DNA of 64,000 nt from Prochlorococcus marinus XMU1411 (GTDB lineage: Bacteria; Cyanobacteriota; Cyanobacteriia; PCC-6307; Cyanobiaceae), in the NCBI RefSeq assembly GCF_017696075.1, contig NZ_JAAORI010000003.1, forward strand, positions 620,001 to 684,000, written 5' to 3'. Positions within the stretch are counted from its first letter, which is position 1; every line of letters starts with the position of its first letter. The notes beneath the pieces were generated by a model. It saw nothing but the letters and a program-made list of their open reading frames with translations. It did not search any database and was not told the origin of the DNA. This document shows, piece after piece, positions 34,940 to 41,127 of the stretch. The position numbers and the translations under genes were made by a program.

Positions 34940-35725
34940 TTATTTGCGAAGTTTAGGAATTAAAAGAGAAGCGACACAAATAACACTAATTGCAGGTCCA
35001 GGCGATAAATTAAAGACTATAGAGAGAGTAAAACCCAGAAGTGAGATGCATAATCCAAAAAATGAAGACCTCATCATTGCAATTCTTAAACTATGAGCCT
35101 TATTTAGCCCTAACAGAGTTGGGGTAGAAAGAAGAGCAATAACAAGAATTACTCCCACTGCTGACATTGAACTAACAATTACTAATGCCGTTGTAAAACT
35201 TAAAGCAAGATTTAATAAAGAAACGTTTATACCACTCGCGGATGCACCTTCTGGATCCAATCCCACATAAACAACCTTTTCATATCCAAAAGTCATTAAA
35301 AGTATAAATACTAAAAAAGCAATTATTGTTCTAAGTAAATCTCCAAAATTTGCTGTCAATAAATCCCCAAATAATACTGCCTCCAAATCAATCCTTATTC
35401 CGAGAAGAGGAATTATAAGGACTCCAAACCCAAGCATTCCGGCTAAAATTGTGTTCATTATTGCTTCATAATTTTCACTTTTTCTACTAGTTAAACTTTC
35501 CGCAATTACTGAGCCCAGAAGACCACTTATAACGCCACCAATTGAGGGATGTATTCCGAGCGCTAATGCGAGAGCAAGTCCAGGCAACACACAATGAGAG
35601 ATTAAATTAACTTGTAATAATCTCTTATGAGTGATTAATACAGTTCCCATAGCTGGGCATAAAATCCCAGAGAATATAGTTATTATTAATGGAACCAGCC
35701 ACCAGTTGTTATTAATAAAAGACAT
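34940..35725 (-). CDS. znuB: Zinc ABC transporter permease
   Basis: A 261-residue integral membrane protein of the ABC-3 family (ZnuB/MntB), with seven or eight hydrophobic segments. GTVLITHKRLLQVNLISHCVLP-type residues near 26-47 and VVYVGLDPEGASASGI around the middle are family landmarks. It would form the zinc channel with ZnuC and ZnuA. The zur and znuC genes sit between it and znuA, with zur on the opposite strand. Confidence 0.88.
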   Translation of the reverse strand: MSFINNNWWLVPLIITIFSGILCPAMGTVLITHKRLLQVNLISHCVLPGLALALALGIHPSIGGVISGLLGSVIAESLTSRKSENYEAIMNTILAGMLGFGVLIIPLLGIRIDLEAVLFGDLLTANFGDLLRTIIAFLVFILLMTFGYEKVVYVGLDPEGASASGINVSLLNLALSFTTALVIVSSMSAVGVILVIALLSTPTLLGLNKAHSLRIAMMRSSFFGLCISLLGFTLSIVFNLSPGPAISVICVASLLIPKLRK

Positions 35726-35742: not shown

Positions 35743-36177
35743 ATGATCAAAAATACGAGACAAAAAATGATTTCGGAAACAATGGTAACTAAGTCTGACA
35801 TTACCAAAAGACAAGAACAACTTCTTGAAGAACTTAATAAATGTGATGATGAATTGTCTGGTCAAGAGTTGCATAGACAATTGATAGAAAGCGGAAAGGC
35901 TATGGGACTGACGACTGTTTACAGGAATCTTCAAGTTCTGATAAAGCATGGCTTAATACGTTCTAGACATCTCCCAACAGGAGAGGTTCTGTACACTCCC
36001 GTAGATAGAGATATTCATCATTTGACCTGTGTTCAATGTGGTGAGACATCAAAAATGGAAGGATGCCCGGTAAAAGATATTCATACACCCAAAACAAATC
36101 CAAAGAAATTCCAATTATTGTTTCATACCCTGGAGTATTTCGGACTTTGCCAAAACTGTTATCAAGCTCAGAATTAA
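35743..36177 (+). CDS. zur: Zinc uptake regulator, Fur family
   Basis: A protein of 144 residues from 35743, with possible internal starts at 35767 and 35782. The winged-helix part includes TTVYRNLQVLIKHGLI, and the C-terminal half has HHLTCVQCG and the pair CQNC, a structural zinc site. The genes on both sides are zinc transport genes, which favours Zur over Fur or PerR. It would bind DNA with zinc and repress the cluster. It is transcribed against znuB and znuC. Confidence 0.85.
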   Translation: MIKNTRQKMISETMVTKSDITKRQEQLLEELNKCDDELSGQELHRQLIESGKAMGLTTVYRNLQVLIKHGLIRSRHLPTGEVLYTPVDRDIHHLTCVQCGETSKMEGCPVKDIHTPKTNPKKFQLLFHTLEYFGLCQNCYQAQN

Positions 36178-36190
36178 AAAGGAACATTTT

Positions 36191-36961
36191 CTAATCACAG
36201 AAATTATTTTCGTTTATAGAGCTAATGTTTATAGCCTCTAATTTATCTTTTATTTGGTCAGGACTACCAACTGCCAAAACACTTTTATCAAGAACGATTA
36301 CTTGATCATAGTTATTTAAAGACTCGCCCCAATCATGGCTACTTACGAGCAAAGAAAGTCCCGCATCCGCAAGTTGACGAACAATTTTTAGAAAATCTTC
36401 CTTTGCAGGTGGGTCCAAAGCTGCACAAGGTTCATCTAAAAGAAATATTTTTGCAGGGGACATAAGAGTTTTTGCTAATAGAGCTCTTTGCTGCTGTCCT
36501 CCTGAAAGAGAATCGAGTCTTCTATTAGCCAAATTTGCAATACCTACTCTTTGCATTGTCGCCTCTAATTCACAACATTTATTAATCCAAGAATTTGGAT
36601 ATGCTAGAAGAGTCTTGATTTGAAAGGGGTTATTACTTCTTGATTTTGAATACTTTATCTGACCAAGAGATACCAATTTTTCAACTGTAATGGGGAACTT
36701 CCAATTCATAGAACTTCTTTGAGGCATAAGTGCCACAAGAGCTCTAGATCTATACAAATTTTCACCGTCAATTTTTATTTCGCCTTTATCTGGAGTATTT
36801 TGTCCTTGCAATATTCTCAAAAGAGTTGATTTACCAGCGCCGTTTGGGCCAACTAACGCTGTTAGAGTTCCAGGTTTAATCTCAACCGATACCTTATTCA
36901 AAGCTGGCTTACTTTTTTTTGTGTATGCAAAGGTTAAATTTTCAGCAACTAAAGTAGCCAT
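36191..36961 (-). CDS. znuC: Zinc ABC transporter ATP-binding protein
   Basis: A 256-residue ABC ATPase: Walker A GPNGAGKST at about 38-46, signature LSGGQQQRALLAKTL in the middle, Walker B IFLLDEP, and the switch His in VSSHDWG. It powers zinc uptake with ZnuB and ZnuA. Its start is divergent from znuA, sharing a 136-bp control region. It is separated from znuB by the opposite-strand zur gene. Confidence 0.9.
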   Translation of the reverse strand: MATLVAENLTFAYTKKSKPALNKVSVEIKPGTLTALVGPNGAGKSTLLRILQGQNTPDKGEIKIDGENLYRSRALVALMPQRSSMNWKFPITVEKLVSLGQIKYSKSRSNNPFQIKTLLAYPNSWINKCCELEATMQRVGIANLANRRLDSLSGGQQQRALLAKTLMSPAKIFLLDEPCAALDPPAKEDFLKIVRQLADAGLSLLVSSHDWGESLNNYDQVIVLDKSVLAVGSPDQIKDKLEAINISSINENNFCD

Positions 36962-37060: not shown

Positions 37061-37077
37061 AAAATGATTATCATTTT
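37061..37077. promoter_or_regulatory. Zur-box-like palindrome before znuA
   Basis: AAAATGATTATCATTTT is a perfect 8-1-8 palindrome, 20 bp upstream of the znuA start. The layout, a long AT-rich dyad with one central base, is that of Zur and Fur operators. Since zur lies within the cluster, Zur-zinc repression of znuA and probably the downstream cobW-WD40 genes is likely. Its position between znuC and znuA could also control znuC. Confidence 0.7.
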
Positions 37078-37097: not shown

Positions 37098-38639
37098 ATG
37101 TCAATTTTTAAAAGACTTTTAACAAATAGAACAGGTTCGAGTAAGTCGATTATTAAAAATTCAGTAATCGCTGGAACGATTATATTTTCTGGTTTTGGGC
37201 AGGATGTTATGGCTAAAGGAAAATCATACGTAGCAGTAGAACCACTAGTTTGTGATTTAGTTAAATCAATTGCATTACCATCTGACGAAGTTACATGCTT
37301 AGTAGATAGAAAACAAGATGTTCATGACTTAAAGATCAATCCAAGGCAAGCTCAATTACTAAATAGCGCAGACAAAGTATTTACTCTTGGTAAAGAAATG
37401 ACTCCAAGTATGAGAAATTGGGAAAATAAAAAGAATACTGTTGTTGTAGGTGTTAGTGCAATAGACGTAGATGATCATTCTGATCATGGAGGTCATGATG
37501 ATCACTCAGACCATGGTGGACATGACGATCATGCTGAACATTCAGCTAAGGTAGACGACCACTCTGATCATGGAGGTCACGACGATCACTCAGATCATGG
37601 TGGACATGATGATCACGCTGAGGGTGCTTTCGAATGGGCAGGCAAATTCCAACTTTCTAAGGGTTCTTACAAATGGTCATTTGAAAAAGTCGATGGAGAA
37701 TATGCAGATCCTGCAATGAAGATGGTGATTCTCAAATCTAATGACATAGAAGGGTCTGAAGATTTAGCTAAAGAACTATTAGGATCTAAAGAATCAATAA
37801 GCAGAAAAAATGATGGTACTTTGATAGCCAGTAATAAAGCTTTTGTTCTTAACTTTGATCAAAGAAAAGAAAGTACTGTTTTTAACGTGGATATCAAAGA
37901 AGATGGTCAATATATATTTTTTACTGAACACATGCCTTTTGAGTTTGAAGCAACTCAACACTTTTTTAAAGACGTTTCAAATAGTGATGTAGAACCAATA
38001 GCACAAGTACCAGACGAAGGAGAGGGGCATCATCATCATGACCATGGAGGACTAGATCCTCATGTTTGGCATGATCCACATAACATCATAAAAATGGGAG
38101 ATCTTATAAGCAAAAGTTTAAAGAAAGATATTTCAGTTTTTAATAGAGGTGACAGAAAACTAATTAATGAAAGATTCGAAAAAGCTGATTCTCTCTTAGA
38201 AGGCTTAGATAGTTGGATCGTCGAACAAGTAAGCTCTATTCCTGAGGAAAACAGAGTAATTGTCTCTAAACACAAAGCAATGGAATACTACGGGGATGCA
38301 TTTGGTTTTGAAACCATTAGTTTACTTGACTTTCTTGGAGACTCCTCAAGCTTAAGGCCAGACAACATAAGTTCTACTTTAAAAATGTTAGATGAAGAGA
38401 AGGTTCAGGCAATATTTCCTGAACAAATTCCAGCATCTAAGTTATTAAGGAACTTAAGTAGACAAAGTTCAGTTCCTTTAGCTTCTAATCAAATATTCGT
38501 TGATGGATTGATGATGAATGGTAATACGGTTTCAGTAGCCGTTCACAACACTTGTACAATTGTTGATTCATTAGGTGGAAGCTGTGATAAAGAATCTGGC
38601 TCAAATCTTGAGTCTGAATGGTACAAACTTTCAGATTAA
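37098..38639 (+). CDS. znuA: Zinc-binding periplasmic protein with His-rich repeats and inserted domain
   Basis: A 513-residue protein, much longer than the usual ZnuA of about 300. It has a signal peptide (about 1-40), the first ZnuA lobe (VAVEPLVCDLVKSI to about 120), His/Asp/Gly-rich tandem repeats (124-175), an inserted domain (about 178-290) similar to one in the adjacent CobW protein, then a second His cluster HHHHDHGGLDPHVWHDPHN (311-329) with ZnuA metal-ligand context, and the second lobe. It would bind zinc in the periplasm and deliver it to ZnuBC. Confidence 0.88.
   Translation: MSIFKRLLTNRTGSSKSIIKNSVIAGTIIFSGFGQDVMAKGKSYVAVEPLVCDLVKSIALPSDEVTCLVDRKQDVHDLKINPRQAQLLNSADKVFTLGKEMTPSMRNWENKKNTVVVGVSAIDVDDHSDHGGHDDHSDHGGHDDHAEHSAKVDDHSDHGGHDDHSDHGGHDDHAEGAFEWAGKFQLSKGSYKWSFEKVDGEYADPAMKMVILKSNDIEGSEDLAKELLGSKESISRKNDGTLIASNKAFVLNFDQRKESTVFNVDIKEDGQYIFFTEHMPFEFEATQHFFKDVSNSDVEPIAQVPDEGEGHHHHDHGGLDPHVWHDPHNIIKMGDLISKSLKKDISVFNRGDRKLINERFEKADSLLEGLDSWIVEQVSSIPEENRVIVSKHKAMEYYGDAFGFETISLLDFLGDSSSLRPDNISSTLKMLDEEKVQAIFPEQIPASKLLRNLSRQSSVPLASNQIFVDGLMMNGNTVSVAVHNTCTIVDSLGGSCDKESGSNLESEWYKLSD
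37467..37634. repeat. 84-bp tandem duplication coding His-rich units
   Basis: Two tandem copies of a 28-codon unit (37467-37550 and 37551-37634) starting VDDHSDHGGHDDH. Each copy contains two internal repeats of SDHGGHDDH. The copies differ only at a few third positions and at the last residues. They are probably metal-binding low-complexity segments whose number can change by recombination. Confidence 0.85.
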
Positions 38640-38716
38640 ATTTTTCTAATAAAAACGGTTTTCATTTCTTTTTATTACTATTATTAAACTATTGTTTATT
38701 TAGTAGAAATCAGTAA

Positions 38717-40066
38717 ATGAGCATCAAAGATAAAGTTCCCGTTACTATTCTCACTGGATTTTTAGGTTCAGGGAAGACTACTTTGCTTAATAGAATATTG
38801 AGTGAAGAGCACGGGAAAAGAATAGCCGTTATCGAAAATGAATACGGTGAAGTAGGTATAGATCAAGGACTCGTAATAAATGCAGATGAAGAAGTTTTTG
38901 AGATGTCAAACGGTTGCATTTGTTGTACTGTTCGCGGTGATTTAATAAGAGTCCTTGGCAACCTTATGAAGAGAAGAGATAAGTTTGACTATGTTTTAGT
39001 AGAAACGACAGGATTAGCAGATCCTGGGCCAGTTGCTCAGACTTTTTTCATGGATGAAGAGATTAGTTCTGAATTTACTCTTGATGGAATTGTAACTTTA
39101 GTTGATGCTGCCCATATTGATCAGCAGCTAGGCAGGAGTGATGAAAGTTCAGAACAAGTTGCATTTGCAGATGTTCTTGTCCTTAATAAAACTGATTTAG
39201 TCTCTGATGATGCACTAGATACTCTTGAATCAAGATTAAGAGACATGAACCGAATGACTCGAATTATTAGAGCCGAAAATGCCAAAGTACCAATTGAAAC
39301 AGTCTTAAATCTAAGTGCATTTGATCTTGATCAGATCCTTAAACGCAGACCAACATTCCTTGAACCAGAATATCCTTTTGAATGGACAGGTGTTTACGAT
39401 CTTGATGCAGGTAAATATGAATTAATGCTAGAAGAAGGACCCGATCCAGAAATGTCCTTGGTAGCCCTTTCTAACCAAGGGGAGAGTGAAGAGGAACTTT
39501 TAGATGGTGCCGAATCCTCCGTGAGACTTTATGCAGAAAAAGCTAATACATTAGATCCTGGAAATACCATCTCATATGGAGAACATATAAATCTCAAATT
39601 GGAGGATAAAGGAAATAAATCCTTCATCCTGAACATAGAAAAACCTACAAAGATAGGTTTGTTTACACAGCACACTGCTGAAGAATTCAATATGAAAGTC
39701 ATTAAAAGCGACGAAAATAAAGAGATCCCATTTAATACTGAAAGGTTCTGGCAAGCAGAGCACGAACATGATGATGAAGTTGGCTCAATTGCTATAGAGC
39801 GTTTTGGAGATGTTGACCCAGAAAAACTAAATACTTGGATGGGAAGACTTCTCTCAGAAAAAGGGGTAGATATATTCAGAACTAAAGGTTTCATTAGTTA
39901 CTCAGGCAACCCAAGGAGAATAGTTTTCCAAGGAGTACACATGTTGTTTACTGCACAACCTGACAAAGAATGGGGTAATGAACCTCGTAGAAATCAACTT
40001 GTTTTTATCGGTAGAAATCTGAATGAAAAAGAGATGCAAGATGGTTTCGATAAATGCCTGATATAG
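38717..40066 (+). CDS. CobW/COG0523 family GTPase, zinc-metallochaperone type
   Basis: A 449-residue protein with Walker A GFLGSGKTT (14-22), the COG0523 metal motif GCICC (66-70), NKTD (157-160) for guanine binding and a C-terminal CobW domain (about 360-445). Between the GTPase part and the CobW domain is an extra domain (about 221-330) similar to that in the adjacent ZnuA-like protein. The place in a Zur-zinc cluster suggests a zinc metallochaperone for growth at low zinc, not cobalamin synthesis. It overlaps the WD40 gene by 13 bp. Confidence 0.88.
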   Translation: MSIKDKVPVTILTGFLGSGKTTLLNRILSEEHGKRIAVIENEYGEVGIDQGLVINADEEVFEMSNGCICCTVRGDLIRVLGNLMKRRDKFDYVLVETTGLADPGPVAQTFFMDEEISSEFTLDGIVTLVDAAHIDQQLGRSDESSEQVAFADVLVLNKTDLVSDDALDTLESRLRDMNRMTRIIRAENAKVPIETVLNLSAFDLDQILKRRPTFLEPEYPFEWTGVYDLDAGKYELMLEEGPDPEMSLVALSNQGESEEELLDGAESSVRLYAEKANTLDPGNTISYGEHINLKLEDKGNKSFILNIEKPTKIGLFTQHTAEEFNMKVIKSDENKEIPFNTERFWQAEHEHDDEVGSIAIERFGDVDPEKLNTWMGRLLSEKGVDIFRTKGFISYSGNPRRIVFQGVHMLFTAQPDKEWGNEPRRNQLVFIGRNLNEKEMQDGFDKCLI

Positions 40067-41127
40067 AACCATTTAGCCCAAGAGGCATGTTCCATGAAGG
40101 ATGGACAGCTGAAGTTAACGATTATGCCATAGCATGTGGCTGGGCTCTAAAAGGAAAACAATTTATTGTTGGCGACGTGGCAGGTGGCATTTTTGCATTC
40201 GAAGGAGATACTGGAAAAATTATTTGGGAAAAAGAAAATACTCACTCTGGTGGTCTACTAGCGATGGCAATTCATCCAGAGGGTGAAATTTTTGCAACAT
40301 CAGGTCAGGATGGAAATGTTCAAATTTGCAATTGCCACGAAGGTAAAGTAATTAAAACGCTTGATCTTGGCAAGGGTTGGGTAGAACACCTCAAGTGGTC
40401 TAATGACGGTTTATTTCTAGCTATAGCTTCCTCAAAAAAAGTATATGTTTTTAATGAAATTGGAGAAGAGAAATGGATCTCAGAAGACCATCCAAGCACA
40501 GTAAGTGCAATAACATGGTCAAATAAAAATGAGTTGGCAACTGCATGCTACGGCAGAGTGACATTCTTTGACATAGTTAATAATAAAACGAATCAAAAAC
40601 TCGAGTGGCAAGGATCATTGGTCTCTATGGAATTAAGCCCCGATGGAGATATTGTCGCCTGTGGGAGTCAAGACAATTCAGTTCATTTTTGGAGAAGATC
40701 AACAGGAATGGATGCTGAAATGACTGGATACCCTGGGAAACCAAGTCACCTTTCATTTGATGACAGCGGAAAATTATTAGCGACAAGTGGCAGTGAAAGA
40801 ATCACAGTATGGAGCTTTATAGGGAATGGTCCAGAGGGCACTATGCCAGGAGAGCTATGTCACCATACAGAACCTATTTCCAGCCTAGCCTTTTCCAATA
40901 AAGGTATGCTTGTAGCCTCAGGATCTAGGGATGGTTCCGTTGTCGCAAGTTTCCTCAAGAATGACGGCAATGGTGATCCCGTTGGGGCTGCATTCGCAGG
41001 AGATTTAGTAGGGGCAATATCTTGGAGACCTGATGATTGTGCACTTGCAGCAGTCAATGCAAAAGGTGTTGTAAATGTATGGAAATTTAAAGTTCGTACT
41101 AACCTTTTTTCAAAGGGATTTAAGTAA
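40054..41127 (+). CDS. WD40 repeat protein in the zinc cluster
   Basis: A 357-residue protein with about seven WD40-type blades, for example GGLLAMAIHPEGEIFATSGQ, SMELSPDGDIVACGSQ and SSLAFSNKGMLVASGSRDG, enough for one beta-propeller. There is no signal peptide. The start overlaps the cobW gene end by 13 bp, implying coupled translation. It is probably a scaffold for the CobW GTPase or its client. There is no catalytic motif. Metal binding cannot be judged. Confidence 0.85.
   Translation: MPDIEPFSPRGMFHEGWTAEVNDYAIACGWALKGKQFIVGDVAGGIFAFEGDTGKIIWEKENTHSGGLLAMAIHPEGEIFATSGQDGNVQICNCHEGKVIKTLDLGKGWVEHLKWSNDGLFLAIASSKKVYVFNEIGEEKWISEDHPSTVSAITWSNKNELATACYGRVTFFDIVNNKTNQKLEWQGSLVSMELSPDGDIVACGSQDNSVHFWRRSTGMDAEMTGYPGKPSHLSFDDSGKLLATSGSERITVWSFIGNGPEGTMPGELCHHTEPISSLAFSNKGMLVASGSRDGSVVASFLKNDGNGDPVGAAFAGDLVGAISWRPDDCALAAVNAKGVVNVWKFKVRTNLFSKGFK

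Follow-up and report, generated by a model that had tools for sequence, protein, structure and literature searches.

What could a ZnuA-like metal receptor and a CobW-type GTPase, two proteins of unrelated families, have in common? The question is raised by two adjacent genes in a 64,000-nucleotide stretch of the genome of Prochlorococcus marinus XMU1411 (contig NZ_JAAORI010000003.1, positions 620,001 to 684,000), hereafter called the window, meaning the whole stretch that was analyzed. The genome measures 1.67 Mb, and its named near relatives are Prochlorococcus. Both proteins carry an inserted segment of about 125 residues, and it was found that the two segments are homologous copies of one module. 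The module recurs in further hosts, mostly metal proteins, at their His-rich stretches. With a probability of about 0.52, we consider it to be an accessory metal-recruiting domain that acts with the adjacent His loop and would itself bind metal. The two genes, the module copies and the surrounding His-rich motifs are as follows.

37098 to 38639, forward strand: gene of the ZnuA-like metal ABC receptor, 513 amino acids (PF01297, 143.3 bits; curated cut-off 29)
38717 to 40066, forward strand: gene of the CobW/COG0523 GTPase, 449 amino acids (PF02492, 206.9 bits, cut-off 20.7; PF07683, 85 bits, cut-off 22)
37620 to 38006, forward strand: module copy 1, in the ZnuA-like receptor, residues about 175-303, with invariant E179, D204, H278, E282 and F283
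39368 to 39739, forward strand: module copy 2, in the COG0523 GTPase, inserted after its G domain and before its CobW_C domain, residues about 218-341, with invariant E222, D243, H319, E323 and F324
37470 to 37619, forward strand: His/Asp-rich repeats directly before module copy 1 (ZnuA residues 125-174)
38028 to 38045, forward strand: HHHHDH stretch after module copy 1 (ZnuA residues 311-316), immediately preceding the conserved DPHVWHDP in the core of the receptor
39761 to 39775, forward strand: HEHDD motif of CobW (residues 349-353), a few residues downstream of the module end

The first host exceeds the PF01297 cut-off and belongs to the ZnuA/cluster A-I receptors. The second exceeds both Pfam cut-offs and bears the CxCC metal motif as NGCICC, which places it among the COG0523/CobW proteins. 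The initial annotation, made by eye, had called the folds of the hosts unrelated, and their families (PF01297 against PF02492 and PF07683) are unrelated too. It had aligned residues about 178-290 of ZnuA with about 221-330 of CobW by the motifs FEWxGxxxL, GxY, DPxM and F(T)xH..EF, all of which were quoted correctly, and had proposed profile-profile comparison, models of both segments and a search of other cobW and znuA neighborhoods as checks. In a single BLASTP comparison of both proteins, ZnuA 175-283 and CobW 218-324 are 30% identical (E=1e-5), and the second-best segment reaches only E=2.0; the module itself is slightly longer than had been proposed (about 175-303 and 218-341). Profile-profile comparison of ZnuA-type with CobW-type module alignments gave a probability of 97% and E=3e-11 (hhalign), and the two types, each compared in the same way with a third set, gave E=1e-17 and 2e-20. 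A six-sequence profile of haloarchaeal and Alicyclobacillus members, with no cyanobacterial sequence, matches CobW (E=2.1e-23) and ZnuA (E=2.9e-17) and no other of the 81 open reading frame segments of the window. Because this set was gathered with the ZnuA copy as query, its ZnuA match is partly circular; the CobW match is independent. Chance similarity is thus rejected by the BLASTP value together with the profile and profile-profile matches. Within its own genome, each copy used as query finds only itself and the other copy at E<=10 (the other at E of about 1e-3), and a family profile (A7) finds these two genes alone at E<=0.001. There are four CobW_C matches in this genome, and the module was found in the window CobW only.

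In both hosts, the module is placed at a His-rich stretch. In ZnuA, the module sits within the His-rich loop of the receptor, with His-rich sequence on both sides (residues 125-173 and 311-316), where the initial annotation had noted His-rich repeats beside the insertion. Module-free ZnuA at the same locus keeps this loop in three of three Prochlorococcus genomes (G459, G167 and G513). In CobW, the module separates the G domain from the CobW_C domain and ends shortly before the HEHDD motif. In all five module-free CobW relatives that were read (318-329 amino acids; chosen from 40 listed of 69 records), "...FL" is followed by HxHD within a few residues. Over all hosts, 59 of 61 module matches have HxH or HH no more than 45 residues away on one or both sides; only a decayed piece from Pantoea and the first module of the L122 tandem do not. 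Since His loops are features of the host families, this closeness shows placement and not metal binding. The number of copies varies. One ZnuA carries two modules in tandem (L122:4712-6556), an 873-residue ZnuA frame has an apparent internal duplication that includes the module (L134:6727-9345), and the module is absent at loci L181, L184 and L185. Genome G459 holds both a module-free ZnuA at its znu locus (L181:3388-4557) and, elsewhere, a module-bearing ZnuA very like that of the window (L180:4493-6067), a natural with/without pair for the ZnuA module. A module remnant with stop codons lies at G050:C2:120843-120995.

As had been proposed, other cobW and znuA neighborhoods were searched, and the module was found again in both host types. 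The wide genome search centered on cyanobacteria, and loci from named genomes were read from the best 80 of 272, all of them Prochlorococcus or uncultured picocyanobacteria. By profile A7 the module is present in 50 of 201 genomes of the family, and by profile A2 in 30 of 386 of the phylum. All 50 module genomes of the family have the CobW type, 40 also have the ZnuA type and none has the ZnuA type alone, as judged by frame length and score with gene content checked in a subset of loci. Counter to this pattern, one single-cell locus (L053) has a ZnuA with the module and no module-bearing cobW in the available stretch. Both types occur in 76 of the best 80 loci, and three of the other four are short loci. 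On plasmids, tblastn with the ZnuA copy matched seven of 72,556 records at E<=0.01, and the CobW copy and three other members matched 11 records each at E<=0.1. Of these 11 plasmid hosts, seven are recognized metal proteins (four ZnuA-type and three CobW-type). The remaining four match no family; one of them adjoins a CsoR/RcnR-type regulator and one lies downstream of urease genes. No phage was matched with the ZnuA copy as query, and none of 14 and 20 pattern matches in viral_contigs was confirmed, so that carriage as phage or virus cargo was rejected.

Four host types can be told apart: CobW/COG0523 GTPases, ZnuA-type receptors, stand-alone lipoprotein-like proteins of haloarchaea, and one membrane protein of Alicyclobacillus. 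CobW-type hosts occur in picocyanobacteria, in four cyanobacterial assemblies outside the family (G201, G226, G229 and G241, whose estimated contamination of 1-7% makes their taxonomy uncertain) and on three plasmids, intact in Pantoea agglomerans, decayed in Pantoea soli, and as an annotated gene lacking the G-domain start in Paraburkholderia sprentiae. The decayed cobW-with-module of the Pantoea soli plasmid and a fragmented WD40 gene (L171:6055-7702) adjoin a nickel transporter, a transcriptional repressor and zigA. ZnuA-type hosts occur in picocyanobacteria and on four haloarchaeal plasmids. Three of these plasmids (L114, L119/L175 and L120) also hold one or two CobW-family GTPases nearby, and the module was not found in the GTPases of these stretches. 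On the Haloarcula halophila plasmid (L119, L175), a block of two GTP-binding, molybdenum-cofactor, iron-sulfur scaffold and cobalt-factor II methyltransferase genes with znuA occurs twice, and the znuA frame is broken in one copy. The stand-alone haloarchaeal proteins, on three plasmids, have a His-rich tail and a Cys that we take to be lipobox-like. One of them, in Natrinema (L174:3875-4426), is encoded immediately downstream of the structural and accessory genes for urease, a hint that the metal at that locus is nickel and not zinc. The Alicyclobacillus plasmid host has several hydrophobic segments and an HX4DH motif, which we regard as typical of nickel/cobalt transporters, and adjoins a CsoR/RcnR-like regulator.

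An alignment of 19 diverse rows has six invariant columns (E, G, D, H, E and F), four of which are metal-capable (E, D, H and E), namely E179, D204, H278 and E282 in ZnuA and E222, D243, H319 and E323 in CobW. Among 156 distinct sequences (92 CobW-type, 56 picocyanobacterial ZnuA-type and eight others, a set with strong picocyanobacterial bias), H, E and F occur without exception (156 of 156) and the E and D in 155 each, with one gap and one Asn. In an alignment of 20 rows of archaeal and bacterial sequences, 13 columns are invariant, and the most distant row is 23% identical to the first.

No family in the searched versions of Pfam and NCBIfam describes either window segment. At E<=1, 20 members gave 11 stray Pfam families, each from one member, with a best E of 0.0089. 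A weak NCBIfam match of ZnuA to ZrgA (E 2.5e-6, far under the cut-off) covers the His-rich stretch at residues 86-179 and not the module. No credible solved relative of the ZnuA module was found by sequence (best E 0.17, with the ZnuA copy as sole query), and no published description was found in a literature search that covered part of the work on zinc genes of marine cyanobacteria. AlphaFold2 models of the two segments have similar strand order around one helix. The ZnuA copy reached a predicted local distance difference test (pLDDT) value of 82.3 and a predicted template modeling score (pTM) of 0.79 (other four models 55-71), and the CobW copy a pLDDT of 62.4 and a pTM of 0.59. Strand order is the respect in which the two models agree, and the CobW model is of low confidence. 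Foldseek gave nothing at E<=0.001 for the ZnuA model (best E 0.018). In a second-look comparison (VIA), the N-terminal domain of GPR180 (9fow) was the top match of both models, with Z 5.6 (root-mean-square deviation 3.7, 98 aligned) and Z 5.9 (3.6, 97 aligned), and p24 GOLD was present in both match lists. Because such Z values are common, these matches only suggest that the module is a jelly-roll-like beta-sandwich. GOLD/jelly-roll domains are weak structural neighbors of both models, with no match in sequence, and the ZnuA copy has no significant Foldseek match.

Did one gene of the pair receive its module from the other? Trees were built from 58 full-enough modules after near-copies (>=93%) had been dropped. 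In a 32-row tree, one branch (96/88) sets the CobW modules apart, and the ZnuA modules of picocyanobacteria fall together with haloarchaeal ones (96/82). In a 33-row tree that includes the window CobW copy, these two groupings have supports of 94/88 and 93/85, slightly below the strict mark, and this copy sits among picocyanobacterial CobW modules (97/98). Because the two copies belong to different lineages in the tree, local duplication between the neighboring genes is disfavored, with bootstrap values of 93-96% at the key forks and long branches flagged in both trees. Most likely, as far as these sequences tell, two module lineages met in this cluster rather than one neighbor being copied into the other.

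The neighboring features are listed next.

40054 to 41127, forward strand: WD40 beta-propeller gene, overlapping cobW by 13 bases
37061 to 37077, forward strand: Zur-box-like palindrome AAAATGATTATCATTTT, 17 bases, upstream of znuA
36191 to 36961, reverse strand: ABC ATPase, ZnuC-like, divergent from znuA
35743 to 36177, forward strand: FUR-family regulator, Zur-like
34940 to 35725, reverse strand: ABC-3 permease, ZnuB-like

The exact AAAATGATTATCATTTT match arose in none of 100 dinucleotide shuffles of the window; with two mismatches, the chance expectation is 0.69. A TGATNATCA palindrome precedes znuA in 74 of 77 Prochlorococcus loci (80 less three with too little upstream sequence), and similar palindromes lie upstream of cobW in G101 and G120, where only CobW is module-bearing. 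Of 16 other loci, however, seven gave no TGANNNTCA site close to the beginning of the frame, which speaks against a universal link. The initial annotation had placed the common domain in one Zur-controlled cluster; with a homologous domain in both proteins and an exact Zur-type palindrome upstream of znuA, the linkage stands. In Synechococcus WH8102, loss of zur raises the expression of synw0968-0973, and within this cluster synw0970-0973 also increase when zinc is scarce; synw0972 and synw0973 are called uncharacterized (PMC9337993). From gene order, these two would be the module-bearing CobW and the WD40 gene. By analogy with the expression of the WH8102 cluster, and from the Zur-type palindrome, zinc may be the metal carried by the window receptor. 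According to a review, Prochlorococcus almost entirely lacks the cluster annotated as ZnuA (PMC8786288); the window receptor therefore probably belongs to another cluster. Gene context also suggests that the window CobW is of COG0523 subfamily 5. Prokaryotic members of this subfamily cluster with WD40 genes and znuABC, some of them downstream of predicted Zur sites (Haas et al., 2009; PMC2770081), a context like that of the window; no inserted domain is mentioned in the portions of that paper drawn on here.

How might one module serve both proteins? It would be a domain that unrelated metal-handling proteins have taken up into their His-rich metal loops, folding independently and binding metal through its invariant E/D/H/E residues. 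In the receptor, it would help to catch scarce Zn2+ (or Co2+/Ni2+), and the metal would move on to the cleft of ZnuA by way of the flanking His-rich loop, as proposed by likeness to the ZinT-like domain of streptococcal AdcA. In CobW, it would be the equivalent beside the HxH motif, holding or handing over metal, or gating its release to clients. The initial annotation had suggested a common zinc-handling or docking function. Zinc handling is the part that we would keep as the best inference from the sequences, and the case for docking to a common partner has become weaker, since from their families the receptor is expected to be periplasmic and the GTPase cytosolic. On opposite sides of the membrane, the hosts would more plausibly have a biochemical property in common than a partner.

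The closest functional parallel is AdcA of Streptococcus pneumoniae, a zinc receptor core with an extra folded domain that works with a His-rich loop when zinc is scarce. There, the ZinT-like domain and the loop, which lies at the interface, aid zinc recruitment under restriction; loss of both together impairs zinc accumulation, only under zinc restriction, and loss of either alone has no significant growth effect (PMC7858048). In AdcA, the ZinT-like domain forms a lipocalin-like barrel at the C-terminus, and its ligands are three His (PMC7858048), whereas the window module lies inside the His loop, is predicted to be a jelly-roll-like sandwich and shows a single invariant His. No ZinT profile was matched by 20 members (Pfam, E<=1) or by the two window segments (Pfam and NCBIfam), and a three-His site as in ZinT is not seen, with one His invariant over the 19 rows and the 156 distinct sequences. 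A second parallel is AztC, a receptor loaded by the accessory zinc protein AztD, a transfer that needs the flexible loop of the receptor (PMC6689063). AztD is a separate periplasmic propeller, whereas the window module is built into the receptor. ZepA, a zinc exoprotein of Anabaena, was also considered from its published description: it has two domains, and its homologs are reported absent from archaea. The diatom ZCRP-B was dropped, as its source describes it as NikA-like.

The most serious competitor is that the module is a protein-protein interaction beta-sandwich, which dimerizes its host or tethers it to a client or permease, with no metal binding of its own. Jelly-roll and GOLD-type domains often mediate interactions, and the weak likeness of the models to such domains (VIA Z 5.6 and 5.9) is in keeping with this role. 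So is the succession of a WD40 gene, or pieces of one, coding for a scaffold-type protein, after module-bearing cobW in 31 of 32 loci examined (the sole exception, L177, is a 3.8-kb contig with a frame ending in unrelated sequence). However, the module-free CobWs of Dolichospermum and Skermanella also precede WD40 genes (E 5e-31 and 2e-28 to that of the window), so that the pairing does not need the module; three other module-free CobWs that were read have no WD40 gene following. Compared with AztD, an exported beta-propeller, the WD40 product has WD40 repeats, and a crude scan picked up no hydrophobic N-terminus in it, although that scan overlooked the signal-like beginning of ZnuA as well. 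Hosts expected in different compartments could have no single soluble partner in common, and of the six invariant residues four are His or acidic, which is not the make-up of a hydrophobic patch. We therefore regard a pure interaction role as rather unlikely.

Two other roles are considered less probable still. Many jelly-roll domains bind small ligands, and a module that binds a metal chelate, a metallophore or a sugar would in ZnuA bring chelated metal. Besides the jelly-roll resemblance, this is favored by sub-threshold Pfam matches to CBM_35 and PA14 (one member each, E 0.12 and 0.11) and by CBM35 and CBM4 chains among the weak structural matches of the models. Such a role would hardly explain a module in CobW, which is expected to be cytosolic, and no carbohydrate-binding family was matched significantly in the Pfam search of 20 members; we hold it to be quite improbable. 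Least of all do we expect a passive spacer or stabilizer tolerated in long exposed loops. The loop or linker position in CobW, ZnuA and the membrane protein would suit a spacer, as would the loci where the module is absent or doubled, but 13 invariant columns down to 23% identity are more constraint than a spacer needs, and stand-alone module proteins exist.

Several observations also weigh against a metal-recruiting domain itself. The module has a single invariant His and its window copies lack Cys, unlike ZinT-like domains with their three-His site, the four conserved E/D/H/E residues could be structural, and the closeness to His-rich loops may only reflect loops tolerating insertions. The receptor also occurs without the module. 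It is missing from ZnuA in G167 and G513 and from the znu-locus copy of G459, and the 319-residue ZnuA of G020, from another genus, has neither module nor His loop. No annotated metal genes lie within 5 kb of two of the three stand-alone proteins (L117 and L118), and the host in Alicyclobacillus has no match among the Pfam and NCBIfam profiles. Five module-bearing loci from outside the genus of the window gave no TGANNNTCA site in the vicinity of znuA, and the model of the CobW module is of low confidence (pLDDT 62).

Accessory zinc-recruiting domains are already known; this module belongs to a family new to the Pfam and NCBIfam versions searched, occurs in bacteria as well as in archaea, and in Prochlorococcus links a zinc receptor with a metallochaperone GTPase. 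More tentatively, as a possibility that we would not yet favor, it may represent an undescribed superfamily of compartment-independent metal-relay cartridges that plug into the His-rich loops of unrelated metal proteins. If so, a receptor, a GTPase chaperone, a membrane transporter and a surface lipoprotein would share one means of kinetic capture and hand-over of Zn, Co or Ni, and the same device would serve zinc import and zinc allocation on opposite sides of the membrane. If gene order holds, identities are also suggested for the two uncharacterized downstream genes of the WH8102 zinc cluster (PMC9337993). The residues of the module and the comparison of ZnuA with and without it bear on the clients of COG0523 proteins and on picocyanobacterial life at very low zinc. 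Prochlorococcus is among the most abundant phototrophs.

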